The position numbers and the translations under genes were made by a program. From the NCBI GenBank assembly GCA_018873225.1, contig JAEILZ010000001.1:1488001-1552000 (forward strand): a stretch of 64,000 nucleotides of DNA, given 5' to 3'. Below are positions 26,375 through 34,489 of this stretch, piece by piece. Under the pieces are notes generated by a model. It saw only the letters and a program-made list of their open reading frames with translations, did not search any database and had not been told where the DNA came from. The DNA is from [Phialemoniopsis] sp. UDSM-2020 (taxonomy: Eukaryota; Ascomycota; Sordariomycetes; Thyridiales; Thyridiaceae). Numbering within the stretch: the first letter of the stretch is position 1; the number at the start of each line of letters is the position of its first letter.

Positions 26375-28910
26375 CTATCGACCTTTGCTCTTCCGCGACG
26401 GGGCGTGCTGTTTGGCGTACCTTGTTAGTGATTTGCTCGACGTATGTGGTATTCCAAACAGAGAGTCTCCAAGTACTTACCACATATCTCACCCGTTCGC
26501 TTCCATCTGGCAGTTGGATGACCTCATGCTGGATATGGAAGCCGATCATGGGCAGAAGCTTAGCCCATACCAGCCAGTACACCGTGCCAATCGCCAACAT
26601 GCTAGTACCAATACCCGGTACTACCCAGAAGGGAATGTTTGACAGGAGGTTGTTGGGGATGAAGGGAGCAGCTAGTACATAGAGCAGAGAGATGACCCAG
26701 AAGATGGTCAATGGCGGGTAACTTCGGAAGGTCGTGCGCTGCTCTCTCCAATTCTCAGCACTGTTGAATGTGAGATACAAAAGGCCGATGCCAATAAACA
26801 CTGCACAACAGGTTAGTCCACTTTCGAGCCCGCGAATGAGATCGAAGATGAGGATATTATGTACATTTGACCCAGTTGCCAGTGTAGGTAAAGATATTAG
26901 TGACGAAGGTATATGTCTCTGGCGTCTTGGAACCGAGAATGAGGGCAACAGTGAACAGCCAATGCAGAAAAATGGCTCCCGTGGGCGCGTTCAGGGGCCA
27001 ATCGCTGGCGAAGAATCGGGGAAAGGGGAGAATGCCTTCCTTGGCAAGCTCTTGCTTGACTATGAACGAAGATCAGTTATCGCAGTCTACGAGTTGAAGC
27101 CAACAAGGAAAGCATACCTCGAGGCATGGCGAACGACTGGGCAAAGACGTTCCCCAGCGCGGAAAGGGCAATAAACGTCGGCAAGACTCTCGTGACAAAG
27201 ACACTATGGCCCCAGACCTGATTCATCTCAGTCAATAACCAAGAACTTCTTCATGAACATGCTTTCGTGCTCTCTTACATGCTCAAAGAATGCTGCCGCG
27301 ACTACGACACTTGAGTCGGCGATCTGATCCTTGGTCATTGCGGCAAACTAGGTCGCGTCAGTCATTGTTGTCTCGAGCCAGATCAAGGTGGTGGGACATA
27401 CATAGGCAATATTGGCCAGAATGAACAGAATAGTCACTGTGGATATGGCCAATGGCGCAGCAATCTTGAGTGTCCTAGGAGCATCGCGAACTTCTGTCAA
27501 GACCTGGGTAGACAGTGTCAGTAGAGCACGAGGGCATAACCAGCACATATGGGGGGTTCAGACTCACGTAGTTGGCGTTTTCCCAACCGCTGTAGGCGTA
27601 GAGAATTTGGAGAATAGCAATCGCATAGCCGGCAGCCTCGCCAGCTTGGTTGAGCAATGCAGATTCGCTTGCTGACATGACCGTGCCGGGACCATTGAAG
27701 GTCGAAAAATTGGAAGGATTAGGTCTAGGCTCTGCCGTATTACCGGCAAGAGCTGCAAAGCCCGTGCAGACAACGAGCAGCAACAGAACAAGCTTAAAGC
27801 AGCCAAGTGCGTTGCTGATCCAAATACCTGGCCTCGGGGCGAAGGCATGGATGAGACACACAACTTGAGAGAGGTCAGTCAGGCTCACAGTATTTCGAGA
27901 CTACAACAGGTGGGCTCACCAGAGATAGCAGCCACAGCTATACCCCTATTCAGCCAGCTGCCGTTCTGGGCATCGCCACTGGCGGCTCTCAGCACATAGC
28001 TACTGAAGCTGATGGCGTTGCCGGTAGAAACGGCAAACAATACGAATTGAACTAGATCGTTGTGTAAGCAAACTTGTCACACGTTGCCTGGATTTAACAC
28101 ATACTCGCAAAAATACAAGTTGCCAGATATCGTGGCTTCTGGTATACTCTTTCAAGCTGTTTCTCCAGTCAGTCTCATACAACTAGATTGAAGGCATCGA
28201 TGAAGTCGCTTACGTAGACTTTCTCACCACCTGAGCGCGGCAGGGCAGTGCCAAACTCGAGATACACGAACACACTTGTCATATTAGCTCACTTCTTGAA
28301 AGCCTGTTGCAAGAATCACAAAACTCACCCACTAGTCCAATAGTTAGCTAACGTTCATTGATCACACCGTCACACCAGCGATGTACTTACGCAATAGTCA
28401 TGACTCCTCCCAGAACCCAGAAGAGGAGCGTCGCGCCGACACTATCTGTGTTCGCGATGATAGCTGACGGCGTCGAGTAGATACCCGTTCCGACGACACG
28501 GTTGATGATCAAGAGTGCCGTACTGAATACACCCAACTTTCTCTCTGTTGAAGGGCACTCCCATTAGCAATCAGCTCCTTCAAATCCCAGCTCACAATCC
28601 CACACGAAAAGGGCCCAGTGGAAAGCTCAGCACACGTACTCTCCGGAAACACAAAGTCGTGATAGTCCTCGGGAGGCTCCTCGGGCACGGGACCCGTGGC
28701 ATACCCCATCGACTTGCTCCTGTCGACTGCATGCGAGTTGACATTGCCATTCTCATAGCTAGAAGAATGCCCATAGCCGTTGGCGGTCTGAGTGCTGTTG
28801 TAGCCTGTGTAAGCTGTATGGCTGATGTAGCCAGTCTGCTCGTCCCCGCTGACCACCGGCTCCAGCTCGGGCGCCGCCACGGGAGCCCTGTAGATCGTGG
28901 GCTCTTGCAT
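26375..28910 (-). CDS. MUP1-type methionine / amino-acid permease (APC superfamily)
   Basis: A proton-coupled amino-acid importer of the plasma membrane. Thirteen exons encode 595 residues: 28640-28910, 28391-28544, 28329-28331, 28214-28274, 28105-28156, 27920-28051, 27568-27863, 27402-27503, 27279-27347, 27118-27217, 26865-27059, 26481-26800 and 26375-26407. A hydrophilic N tail of about 90 residues precedes twelve predicted membrane segments. TM1 carries the APC signature NRVVGTGIYSTPSAI, and VYLEFGTALPRSGGEK follows TM2, as in the Mup1 branch; YAYSGWENANYVLTEVRDAP is the TM6-7 region. Third exon: only TGG (3 nt), flanked by CTAG and GTGAGT. The last intron is ambiguous: splicing at 26408 ends in HAPSRKSKGR, while reading through ends at 26334. 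Substrate is inferred from the family. Confidence 0.86.
28329..28331 (-). other. 3-nt micro-exon of the permease gene
   Basis: Read on the minus strand, TGG lies between ...TTGGACTAG and GTGAGTTTTG. The two flanking introns are 59 bp (28332-28390, branch-like GCTAAC) and 54 bp (28275-28328, branch-like GCTAAT), both of normal local size. With the micro-exon the protein reads TIAGVFVYLEFG; without it, a single 116-bp intron would give TIAVFVYLEFG, also in frame. A glycine at this place is usual in the family as I know it. Confidence 0.65.
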
Positions 28911-30774: not shown

Positions 30775-33106
30775 TCAGGTCCTAACCGAAAGTGCGTCCC
30801 GCGATGAGAAGACCTCCTTCTTCATATCGTCTTGGATTCGCTCGAGTCGTTTCCTTTGCCTCCTCCTCTCGTCCAAGACCTCTTTCCAGGCCTGGATAAA
30901 ATTCACTTGGCCTGAAAGAAGAAGTAATTGTTAGCGGGGGCTAAAAAACTAAGGCAATGCACACAGTGACTTACTTGGCGAGCTTTCGAACTCTATCTCA
31001 AACGTCTTGTAGGATGAGAATGTCTCCTCTACATCGGGATTGTAGGTCTCGCCATGGATGGCGAGCCCAACTGGCTCCGAGTGTGATCGTCCTTCAAATT
31101 GGGCTGTTGAAGCACCTGATTAGCTTTGTCCGTATATTATAAAGCGATGATGAGAGTTTACCTTTCACACCTGGTCGAGAGGCTCGTCGGTGAAGACCAC
31201 TGTACTTTCGAGGTTTTAACCTCACGCATGTCTGGTCCTTCTGGTCGACATCGATATCATCCGTGACTAGATGAAGTCTGTTAATGTCCATTTCGAAGCG
31301 GATTGCAAATCTAAGCTTCTACTCACTGAATACTGTAATATACTCCTCTGCTCTCCCTAGAAAGATCACAAGTCTTGACGTGTTGATGACTGTGCGGTCT
31401 CTTAGGGGCCCTGAGACTGTTGTTCCGGCTGTGACGAAGGAGGCCACGTCCGACTGCATCGTACGCCGTGATCGAGGCTCGTGCCATATTTGAAGACGCA
31501 CGCTGGAATACATCTTACTCGAACGGCTGTTCGCCTTGCCAAGGTTGATCCACTTGACACTGGATATGTCAAGCACAACATCTTCTCCTGTGAGCTTGCT
31601 CTGGAACTTGAATAGATCCTGGAGATCTGGGAACTGGTATATCCCACGCGGCCCGTTCAAGGGCGGTTGTGATGACTGGTGGCCGCTGTTCTTTCTCTTC
31701 TCGTCGTCTCGGATACAGATCAGCCGTTCTGATCTTTGGTCGTATGCATATGTCGGTATAAGCTGGGCTTTGTTTCCCTTCAGCCAGTATGTTTCGGAAT
31801 CGTTCCCGACTTTGCAATAGAATCTCAAATCACGGTTGAGGTTATTTCGGAAAACCTTGAGTTGGGCATCCTCGTACGGCCCTGCAAGGGTTGGAGAGCT
31901 TTTGATGTTACCCTCGTATACCATTTCCTCTCCAGGGAGGACATTGTCGCGTGTGGTACTGGAGCCGTCAGAACGGCTTTGGTTATAAGTTGATGGTGCA
32001 TGAACATGAACGACCACCGGCGTCTGTGTGTCTATGGGGTTCGCATCGTAAGCTGGATAGTCGGTGGTCGTGCGATATCCGTATGCTGCATAACTTCCAG
32101 GGCTGACTGACACAGGATTCGCATATGCAACGGGTTGCGGTGAAGAGTCCGAGGGGGGCGAAACAACCGGACTAGAGTATTCCATCAACGATGGGAGAGA
32201 AGACCGTACAGGCGCGGTCACCGCGGGGGAAGATTGACGCCCTGCAGCTTGCCTGATCCACGCCTCTGGAAGAAAGCCATTAGAAGTACTTCCATTCCGC
32301 TGCTGCGTTTGAGCTTGAGAATAAATATCCTGAGCAGGTGCAACCCGGCCTGGAGAGCCCTGATAGGTGTGATTTTGGTAGGGAGTAGTGGCTGGAAGAC
32401 TCCCTGACCTCACATAGGTTTGAGAGGTCTGGCCATAGTAGAAGCCGGTAGGCGAGAAATGGGTCGTGTCGCCGGGGGACAGTATTGCACCGTCGTATTG
32501 GAAATAGCCACCTTCAGAGTAACTCCGAGCACCTGTCGTGGTATGAAACTGGTCGCCGTCACCGACACTTGCGGTCTCGCTGAATACCGGTTCCCTAAAC
32601 ACTGGCCCGGGCGCTGGGTTTGAGTCCGTCAAGGTCTCTGCCGCCTGCACTCCACCGTCCGACAGCTCGTACAGCGCCGATGCGCTGAACCGCCCGATTT
32701 GCAGATTGCCCACGAGTTCTGCCACCTCGTCCGCCGATAATTTGGAGTCCGCATTCGAACTCCGTCTCGATATGTCAATCACGTCGGGTATTGCCAAGGA
32801 GGCCACCGGTGTCTTGGCAGACACGGGAAGCGGTCTTCGATTCACTGATGTCGCATTCAGTGCCTGGACATCGGGAGCTCGAGAGGGCAGCGCCGGCCCG
32901 GTCGCGTGACTGCCACTATCTGGCAGCTTTCGGATGAGGTATCGCTGCCCCGTGGGCGAAATGAAGACGCTGTCGTCAGCCAGCTGCGCTGTGGACTCGA
33001 CGGTGGCGGCGTCAAAGTTGTGTGCGGCGAAGAAGGAGGAGAAAGGCGCAACTGCCTCGTCAATGTCCGGGAGATTGGGGGCGTGGTTGCGACTCTGCCC
33101 CGGCAT
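30775..33106 (-). CDS. fungal protein of unknown function, disordered N half and ordered C half
   Basis: Four exons (31327-33106, 31162-31266, 30975-31103, 30775-30911) encode 716 residues. The first 60 residues include a compact FISPTGQRYLIRKLPDSG motif. Residues about 65-400 are Ser/Pro/Tyr/Gln-rich and probably disordered. Residues about 410-650 are ordered and beta-rich by composition: VYEGNIKSSPTLAGPYEDAQ, LKVFRNNLNRDLRFYCKVGN, and DVVLDISSVKWINLGKANSR. The C terminus ends in a charged helix (WKEVLDERRRQRKRLERIQD). This pattern of strands followed by a charged helix could be a PH-like or FHA-like fold, but that is only an impression. All three introns have standard donors (GTGAGT, GTAAAC, GTAAGT). 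No signal peptide or membrane segment is present. Confidence 0.75.
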
Positions 33107-34489
33107 AGTTGAATGCCATTAAGCAGCGCGCGATTTCTCAGGTCAACATGTTCAGGGGGGCTGCGAGGAGGGGAAGGCGTCGGGGATGTCGAAGTCTGCG
33201 CGGGCCAAGGCTTTGCATTATCGTGGGTGTTGGCCAGAGAGAAGGAGAACGGTCGGGTTGGAGTGAGAGGACGGAGAGAGCGAGCGCCAACGCGGGGGGA
33301 CCCTAATATTGAATCCAAGGGCCTACTATGGGACTTTACTAAGGTACTTTACTTTACATGGCCCAGACAGATAGATAATGGGGTGGGGTGCCCAGTCCGG
33401 GCCAGTATGTGGATGGGAGCTGGGGAAGGGGGAGAAAGCGGTGCGTGGGAACATGGCACGCATGGATTGAAACCCATCAATCCACCATCAAGACCATGGC
33501 TGGCGCTGCGTACGCTGGTACTGGTCCTGGTGCCTGCCTGACCTCGCCTATCCTCCTTAGAAACCCTACTAGCCCAGCTAGCTTATCTCGCCTCCACCGA
33601 CTTGTAACTTGGACCAATTGATGACGGGCCCTCGAAAAAGCTTGGCGGCACATTGAACTGGGAGGGAGGTGGGAGGGCATCCCGACACCCTTTGCCTGCG
33701 CACTTGTACCAATAGGATGACCGCGGGTGAGGCTGAGATCTGCAACCGTGGTCTCGCGTGCACGAGACAACATTCTCCATCAGACGATATCGGAATGCGA
33801 CAGCATGCTGCGCTCCCGTCTCTGCCCCGGCCCCCAAAGACAAGTTGGAGGTGGACGCCTCTTTCTCTGGCTTCTGTAAGTCCAAAGGCGATCTTCCTAC
33901 CTGGGAAGTACCGTGTCTGTCACGAACAAAACAAGCTCTCTGACAGGTTGACATTGATGCCTACCAGGGTAAGGCTGTGCACTACTGCTTCTCTCCCACA
34001 TCATAGTTCCGTACCTAGGTAGACTGTATCCGAGATGGCGACCCTTCCCCGAACCGCCTTGTAATTTCAAAGATGCCACACGAGGTAGTTGTTTCTTCCC
34101 AACTATCTGCACAGTACTCTTCGTGCCTATCAACGTTTCCAAGTCAAGCGAAGATTTCTAATGTAACGCGATACACATATAGCTTATGCCTGTCCCGTCC
34201 CCAGCTTATATCCACAGGGGTGAAAAGACCCTGATGACATCATGCCCGGTAATAGCTAAGTTGTTGAGCAAATCCCATGCAACGTAGGTACTGTCCTGAT
34301 CCTTCTCCTTTCGCTGAACCAAGTAGAAATGCAGACAAAATCCGACGCCGTTCATTATGCTGAATTCTCCTAACGCCGACCCTCGTAAAAGTCGTAAACC
34401 TGGCCAACACAGGTCCCAAAAGCGGGATACGGTGAAATCCATGCTTCGCCTGATGGGTTCTTGTGCATGTCCAAGTGATGCCGGTTTCA
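33107..34489. other. intergenic region, unknown-gene promoter and NC2-alpha 3' end
   Basis: A 1.38-kb spacer between tandem minus-strand genes; no gene is supportable. Confidence 0.5.

Follow-up and report, generated by a model that had tools for sequence, protein, structure and literature searches.

A probable three-nucleotide exon in a fungal amino acid permease gene and its apparent omission from annotated models of related genes

The window analyzed here, a stretch of 64,000 nucleotides from [Phialemoniopsis] sp. UDSM-2020 (contig JAEILZ010000001.1, positions 1,488,001 to 1,552,000), contains an amino acid permease gene in which three nucleotides, TGG, stand between two stretches that each look like an intron. 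Do these nucleotides form an exon of their own, or is a single intron of 116 nt removed and a protein shorter by one residue made? From the DNA of the gene and the proteins of its relatives, we put at about 0.92 the probability that TGG at 28331-28329 is a genuine internal 3-nt exon, included by default in the mature mRNA. The start codon and splice sites of the gene model were placed by eye and by homology, and the features are as follows.

26375..28910, minus strand: coding region of the amino acid permease gene, in 13 exons that specify 595 aa when the micro-exon is counted
28391..28544, minus strand: exon 2, ending in ...ATTGC, phase 2
28332..28390, minus strand: intron A, 59 nt, with GTAAGT, GCTAAC and CTAG
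28329..28331, minus strand: putative three-nucleotide exon TGG, giving the last base of an alanine codon (GC|T) and the first two of a glycine codon (GG|T)
28275..28328, minus strand: intron B, 54 nt, with GTGAGT, GCTAAT and CAAG
28214..28274, minus strand: exon 4, starting with T|GTGTTCGTGTATCTCGAG (VFVYLEFG)

The minus strand thus reads exon 2, intron A, TGG, intron B, and then exon 4: TGTGTTCGTGTATCTCGAG. The spliced protein with the glycine scored 303.2 bits against the Pfam family PF13520 (AA_permease_2; curated cut-off, 27 bits) and belongs to that family. The version without the glycine scored 299.5 bits, the residue adding only 3.7 bits, and for that version a second family, PF00324, was also reported. 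The best three named homologues among the matches listed (P0002-P0004, from the genera Coniochaeta, Pyricularia, and Podospora) showed 67-68% identity, with 98-99% of the query aligned. A long open frame (599 aa, stop to stop) in which S, P, T, Q, and Y are abundant lies 5' of the permease gene, on the minus strand at window positions 31319-33118.

The sequence-only reading had proposed two adjoining introns of 59 and 54 nt with TGG alone between them and a full set of donor, branch-like site, and acceptor in each; its coordinates are borne out on the minus strand, and all six signals turned out to be whole in the genomic sequence. The other ten introns of the modelled gene measure 53-95 nt (mean, 63.5 nt). 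On a splice-site matrix built from those ten introns, the donors of introns A and B scored 8.6 and 7.1 bits, within the ten-intron range of 6.0-10.3, and the acceptors scored 5.0 and 3.8 bits, within the range of 3.7-7.0, with acceptor B near the bottom; the CAAG acceptor of intron B also serves the intron at 27919-27864 of the same gene. Both introns contain the branch-like motif NCTRAY, as do eight of the ten others. With its 3 nt between two complete introns, TGG falls within the definition of a micro-exon as an internal exon of up to ~30 nt so flanked.

We then enumerated the possible splice models, with GT donors (also GC in the one-intron models), AG acceptors, and introns of at least 40 nt. 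The reading frame and the two outer motifs were kept by 4 one-intron and 18 two-intron models. The motif WVLGGVMT was retained by a single two-intron model, the one with TGG, in which the glycine is included, and by a single one-intron model, that of the 116-nt intron, in which the glycine is lost; this last model is in frame, as the earlier claim that the frame also survives skipping had it. When the interior of the 116-nt stretch was shuffled 200,000 times with dinucleotides preserved and the ends fixed, a branch site, acceptor, 3-nt spacer, and donor in this arrangement, with both parts at least 45 nt long, arose in 52/200,000 shuffles, and in 3/200,000 with a spacer ending in GG.

The motif occurs once in the window, both strands counted. 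A strict form, CTAAC..YAG-TGG-GTRAGT, cut from the TGG feature itself, gave one match in the 44.18-Mb genome and one in the reversed control. Allowing any 3-nt spacer, the genome scan yielded 9 matches versus 13 in the reversed control, no excess, and the CTGAC version with any 3-nt spacer yielded 7 versus 15; these loosened scans gave no sign of many further such exons in the genome. Since the genome counts do not exceed the controls, the motif by itself proves nothing, and it is the gene context and the comparison with relatives that carry the case. A second CCAG-TGG-GTGAGT behind a CTGAC is present in the genome (locus L051, G000:C2:402954-402982) and could be an ordinary exon end.

For the comparison, three homologue searches scored ~8,000 candidates each, of which 1005, 1094, and 269 passed the cut-offs. 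All 191 distinct proteins among the matches listed were aligned together with the window protein (192 rows) and then sorted at the site, full length being defined as a motif span of 19 residues, counted from its W through its last G (here WVLGGVMTIAGVFVYLEFG), and short as exactly one residue fewer. In this alignment, the residue is kept in 137 of the 192 rows listed (window included), 25 rows are short by one, and 30 are irregular or do not cover the site. Glycine stands at the position in 135 of the 137 full rows among the matches listed, in line with the claim that inclusion of TGG restores a glycine of the family; the two full rows without it, P0018 and P0190, have serine. TGG thereby encodes part of a conserved, in-frame protein segment. 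In phmmer comparisons with structure sequences (20 matched), the glycine aligned ungapped to a glycine in the three alignments shown (7nf6, 8qey, and 6yup), which are named as b(0,+)-type and Asc-type amino acid transporters. We take the position to lie in TM2 of the transporter fold, and its conservation suggests a functional need for the glycine. At seven other permease-like loci of the same genome, the glycine lies in an unbroken frame at six and is absent from one, L036. A paralogue on C9 that showed a gap near the site was set aside, its intron actually lying after VYL with the glycine inside an unbroken frame.

The tree was built from 71 of the 192 rows, a hand-picked close clade with outgroups, with the columns of the site excluded. 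Taxon names of its rows came from source labels, and the fungal classes are those to which we take the taxa to belong. The window gene, Pyricularia, and four contig-derived rows formed a group of 6 rows (SH-aLRT, 98), nested in a 53-row group of Sordariomycetes, Dothideomycetes, and one lichen fungus (SH-aLRT, 94). Four Orbilia/Arthrobotrys rows joined on a long branch to make 57 rows (SH-aLRT, 92). Nine presumed classical MUP1-like rows, chosen by us as the outgroup, fell outside this clade. The earlier label of a MUP1-type permease is therefore only loosely right: some members of the window gene's own clade are named "high-affinity methionine permease," but the clade sits beside, and apart from, the presumed classical MUP1-like rows. 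Rows in which the site was not covered or was garbled were left out of the tree and of the clade test, namely, contig rows P0048, P0049, P0055, P0059, P0060, P0062, and P0121, annotated rows P0040, P0042, P0058, P0061, P0071, P0079, and P0122, and nine Orbilia-type rows, P0147-P0155. One of these, P0055, is an amino acid permease fragment whose jgi label, "phosphatidylinositol 4-kinase," is apparently wrong. Searches for relatives' DNA at the site gave 9 pattern matches in bacterial and archaeal genomes and 3 matched stretches in viral contigs, none of them a relative.

The short rows were distributed unevenly between sources. Among the matches listed, the 157 annotated rows comprised 110 full, 25 short, and 22 other; the 31 rows known from lgn or jgi contigs only (we take the source code lgn to denote Logan assemblies) comprised 23 full and 8 other; and the mixed-source rows were full in 3/3 cases. 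All 25 short rows, each standing for a cluster at 90% identity, are thus annotated models, and none is an lgn/jgi-only or mixed-source row. The clade itself, Orbilia included, offers 56 rows besides the window for a test, of which 7 irregular ones (6 annotated and 1 contig-derived) stand outside the 2x2 table. Its contig-derived rows were of full length in 11/12 cases, the twelfth, P0053, being irregular before the site with the glycine present; its 44 annotated rows comprised 25 that are one residue short, 13 that are full, and 6 that are irregular at the site. Fisher's test on full and short rows (11/0 versus 13/25) gave a P value of 8.6e-5, and without the four Orbilia rows (11/0 versus 13/21) one of 2.8e-4, the rows in both cases being related and not independent. 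A sign test on independent pairs in the tree found about 5 in agreement, 0 in disagreement, and about 4 without a difference (P of ~0.06). Neighbors in the tree differ at the site in one direction only, for example, Pyricularia P0003 (short) versus P0013 (full), which are 86% identical. It had been predicted that gene finders would merge the two introns, and annotation does seem to drop the residue, 25 of the 44 annotated clade models being one short.

Four of the short models, P0064, P0067, P0072, and P0073, come from Orbilia/Arthrobotrys and their kin. Among further Orbilia-type models, the micro-exon site is garbled in P0147-P0152, coincides with the start of P0153 (MFVYLEFG), and precedes the first residue of P0154 and P0155; P0147, read back from protein, seems to have kept an intron tail ending in AG|G CTA. 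The annotated clade models P0031, P0032, P0033, and P0051 are cut or altered at the site. P0014 has WRSG, which would be expected if the model had used an acceptor located six bases upstream of the micro-exon, and P0035 (Cercophora sp. LCS_1) seems to go on from the glycine into intron B, which would fit a GTAYGT donor directly after GG.

When a gene model leaves out a phase-2 exon of three bases and splices exon 2 straight to exon 4, the expected junction codon is XY|N, in which XY comes from the codon that precedes the glycine (its first two bases) and N from the third position of the glycine codon. The residue before the glycine in the 137 full rows listed is C in 73, A in 36, S in 19, T in 5, and F in 4, and W in 0/137. 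The junction residue of the 25 short rows listed is W in 11, C in 7, L in 4, A in 2, and V in 1, and the difference for tryptophan (11/25 short versus 0/137 full) has a P value of 1.2e-10. With XY taken from a C, A, or F codon, 24/25 short rows fit the rule (W as TG+G, C as TG+T/C, A as GC+N, and L as TT+A/G), and V does not. The rule was framed after the data had been seen and, tryptophan apart, is loose, as 8/20 residues would pass; for this reason, we place the weight on tryptophan, plain loss of a glycine codon being expected to leave C or A. The valine at the junction belongs to P0054 (Xylariaceae), and P0018 (Podospora bellae-mahoneyi) has Cys-Ser in place of Cys-Gly; both may perhaps reflect a wrong choice of acceptor.

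The value of the contig-derived rows depends on whether they represent spliced RNA. Ten of the 11 full-length rows keep the spacing of the window gene to within 6 residues at all 12 intron positions. The remaining one, P0024 (a jgi contig), keeps it at ten positions and has the glycine, but carries 21 extra residues (63 nt, in frame) at VY|LERVY, the next intron position, after GGEKVY, and another 21 near the last intron position. The first insert begins with VS and ends with AQ, as a retained GT-AG intron would, so that P0024 looks like partly spliced RNA with a retained intron there. Elsewhere, P0048 starts with intron-like sequence before VQFVLF, extra residues occur at intron positions in P0049 (17 and 18), P0053 (36), and P0062 (29), and the contig open reading frames of P0059, P0060, and P0121 start at residue 225. 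Since contig reading frames break at, or read through, several of these positions, introns exist there in the relatives, and the 11 collinear contig-derived rows are consequently best read as spliced RNA. On the other hand, of the 12 intron positions, six are passed smoothly by P0053 and five each by P0059 and P0060, which points either to relatives with fewer introns or to partly spliced contigs and makes collinearity a weaker proof of splicing than it appears.

P0053 (Neurospora-like; 86% identical to its neighbor, P0029 of N. crassa) reads ...KAANSHPQPQ-SGLAVYLEFG. This would fit a translation that passes from the last part of intron A straight into the glycine, intron B being absent, as AN is compatible with GCTAAC, followed by AG before the Y of YGG; partly spliced RNA would be expected to give the same pattern equally well. 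If the former holds, intron A can exist without intron B, which that lineage would have lost or would never have acquired.

The protein scars and the contig-derived sequences together indicate that the same exon is probably present in many Pezizomycotina and skipped by annotation. We consider it likely, if less securely so than the exon in the window gene, that a 3-nt nuclear exon has been kept and constitutively spliced since the ancestor of Sordariomycetes, Dothideomycetes, Lecanoromycetes, and possibly Orbiliomycetes and that it is absent from most of the public clade models examined.

One other explanation is that TGG is a regulated cassette micro-exon, skipping being a used alternative by which the transporter is switched off or altered. 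Skipping in frame is possible according to the enumeration, and a precedent has been described in Trichoderma, where a 20-nt micro-exon of xlr2 acts as a glucose-dependent switch (PMC11121469). However, the signals of both introns are ordinary, the glycine hardly varies among homologues, and the skipped form, sought among the 11 full-length contig-derived clade rows, was seen in none (0/11), these rows being few and their conditions not given. The hint in the sequence-only reading that skipping might be in use thus finds no support, and we regard such regulation as very unlikely.

If anything still harder to sustain is a single 116-nt intron (28390-28275), in which case the protein would truly be without the glycine and TGG amid splice-like signals would be a product of chance. 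This intron is the sole one-intron model to keep both WVLGGVMT and the frame, and the gene models of 25 public relatives are shortened in the same way; moreover, L036, one of the seven other permease-like loci, also goes without the glycine, and four of the seven are not needed for this reading. Against this, 116 nt is outside the 53-95-nt range of the gene's other introns, chance produced the internal signals in only 52 of the 200,000 shuffles, the residue is present in the 11 full-length contig-derived clade rows, and the junction tryptophan of 11/25 short models fits TG joined to G and not the simple loss of a codon. A stwintron, in which one intron is nested in another and the two are excised one after the other without leaving an exon between them, is virtually out of the question. 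Although two adjacent fungal introns of such size are the setting in which stwintrons have been described (PMC6616335), each intron here leaves the donor, branch-like site, and acceptor of its neighbor intact.

For a genuine 3-nt exon, the route of splicing can be outlined. Intron definition is usual in filamentous fungi, and introns A and B would each be recognized across itself. As both are short and have complete signals, each could be removed alone, and an exon of three bases would need no exon definition. The two removals are likely to be sequential, because a U1 snRNP on donor B would cover the exon and crowd acceptor A. With both introns in phase 2, the exon would complete the alanine codon and begin the codon of a glycine in a membrane helix. 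Joining of the outer sites would instead give an in-frame protein without the glycine, with the register of the helix shifted and the transporter probably damaged.

Ultra-short exons are already known. A close case is CYP621A of Fusarium, a nuclear gene with a 1-nt exon reported in February 2026 and confirmed by SRA reads; like TGG, it concerns a filamentous ascomycete and an ultra-short exon within a conserved glycine codon, deduced by comparison with collinear homologues and with a relative that has no intron, whereas it is 1 nt long, breaks the frame when omitted, and belongs to a different gene family (PMC12940212). The 1-nt micro-exons of plant APC11 (PMC4674806) and VPS55 (PMC8831610) resemble TGG in being conserved over a large clade and widely absent from reference annotations but differ in being of plant origin, 1 nt long, and RNA verified. 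A 3-bp micro-exon of Drosophila homothorax is likewise three nucleotides long, in frame, and evolutionarily conserved, yet a second donor there yields an alternative form of 48 bp, and the gene is that of an insect transcription factor (PMC7392893). The xlr2 micro-exon shares with TGG a filamentous ascomycete host and omission from the gene model, although it is longer and glucose regulated (PMC11121469). Stwintrons also place two short fungal introns side by side and allow sequential excision, but at the TGG site no signal is interrupted and an exon is left between the introns (PMC6616335). Exons from 6 bp upwards occur in P450 genes of Phanerochaete (PMC1184071), and one report mentions exons of 3 bp in the mitochondrial genes of fungi (PMC12308204). 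No paper combining "methionine permease" and "microexon" was found in the open-licence literature, and none of the matches listed from it, in the parts accessible, names such an exon in any amino acid permease. Judged against the literature covered, what is new here is the amino acid permease family, and what stands out is the apparent spread over several fungal classes together with an apparently recurrent annotation error.

For protein work, it matters that the short models, which come from several genera (Pyricularia, Podospora, and Thermothelomyces among them), are without a conserved glycine of a membrane helix, which concerns anyone who expresses or models these proteins. The scar itself, one residue too few and a tryptophan at the junction, may allow such exons to be recognized in protein databases without RNA, and the present case suggests that, if the reading is true, more of them are hidden in fungal annotation. 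It further suggests that fungi with short introns can retain an exon of minimal size, and, if true, fungal intron definition would tolerate exons of nearly zero length over deep evolutionary time.
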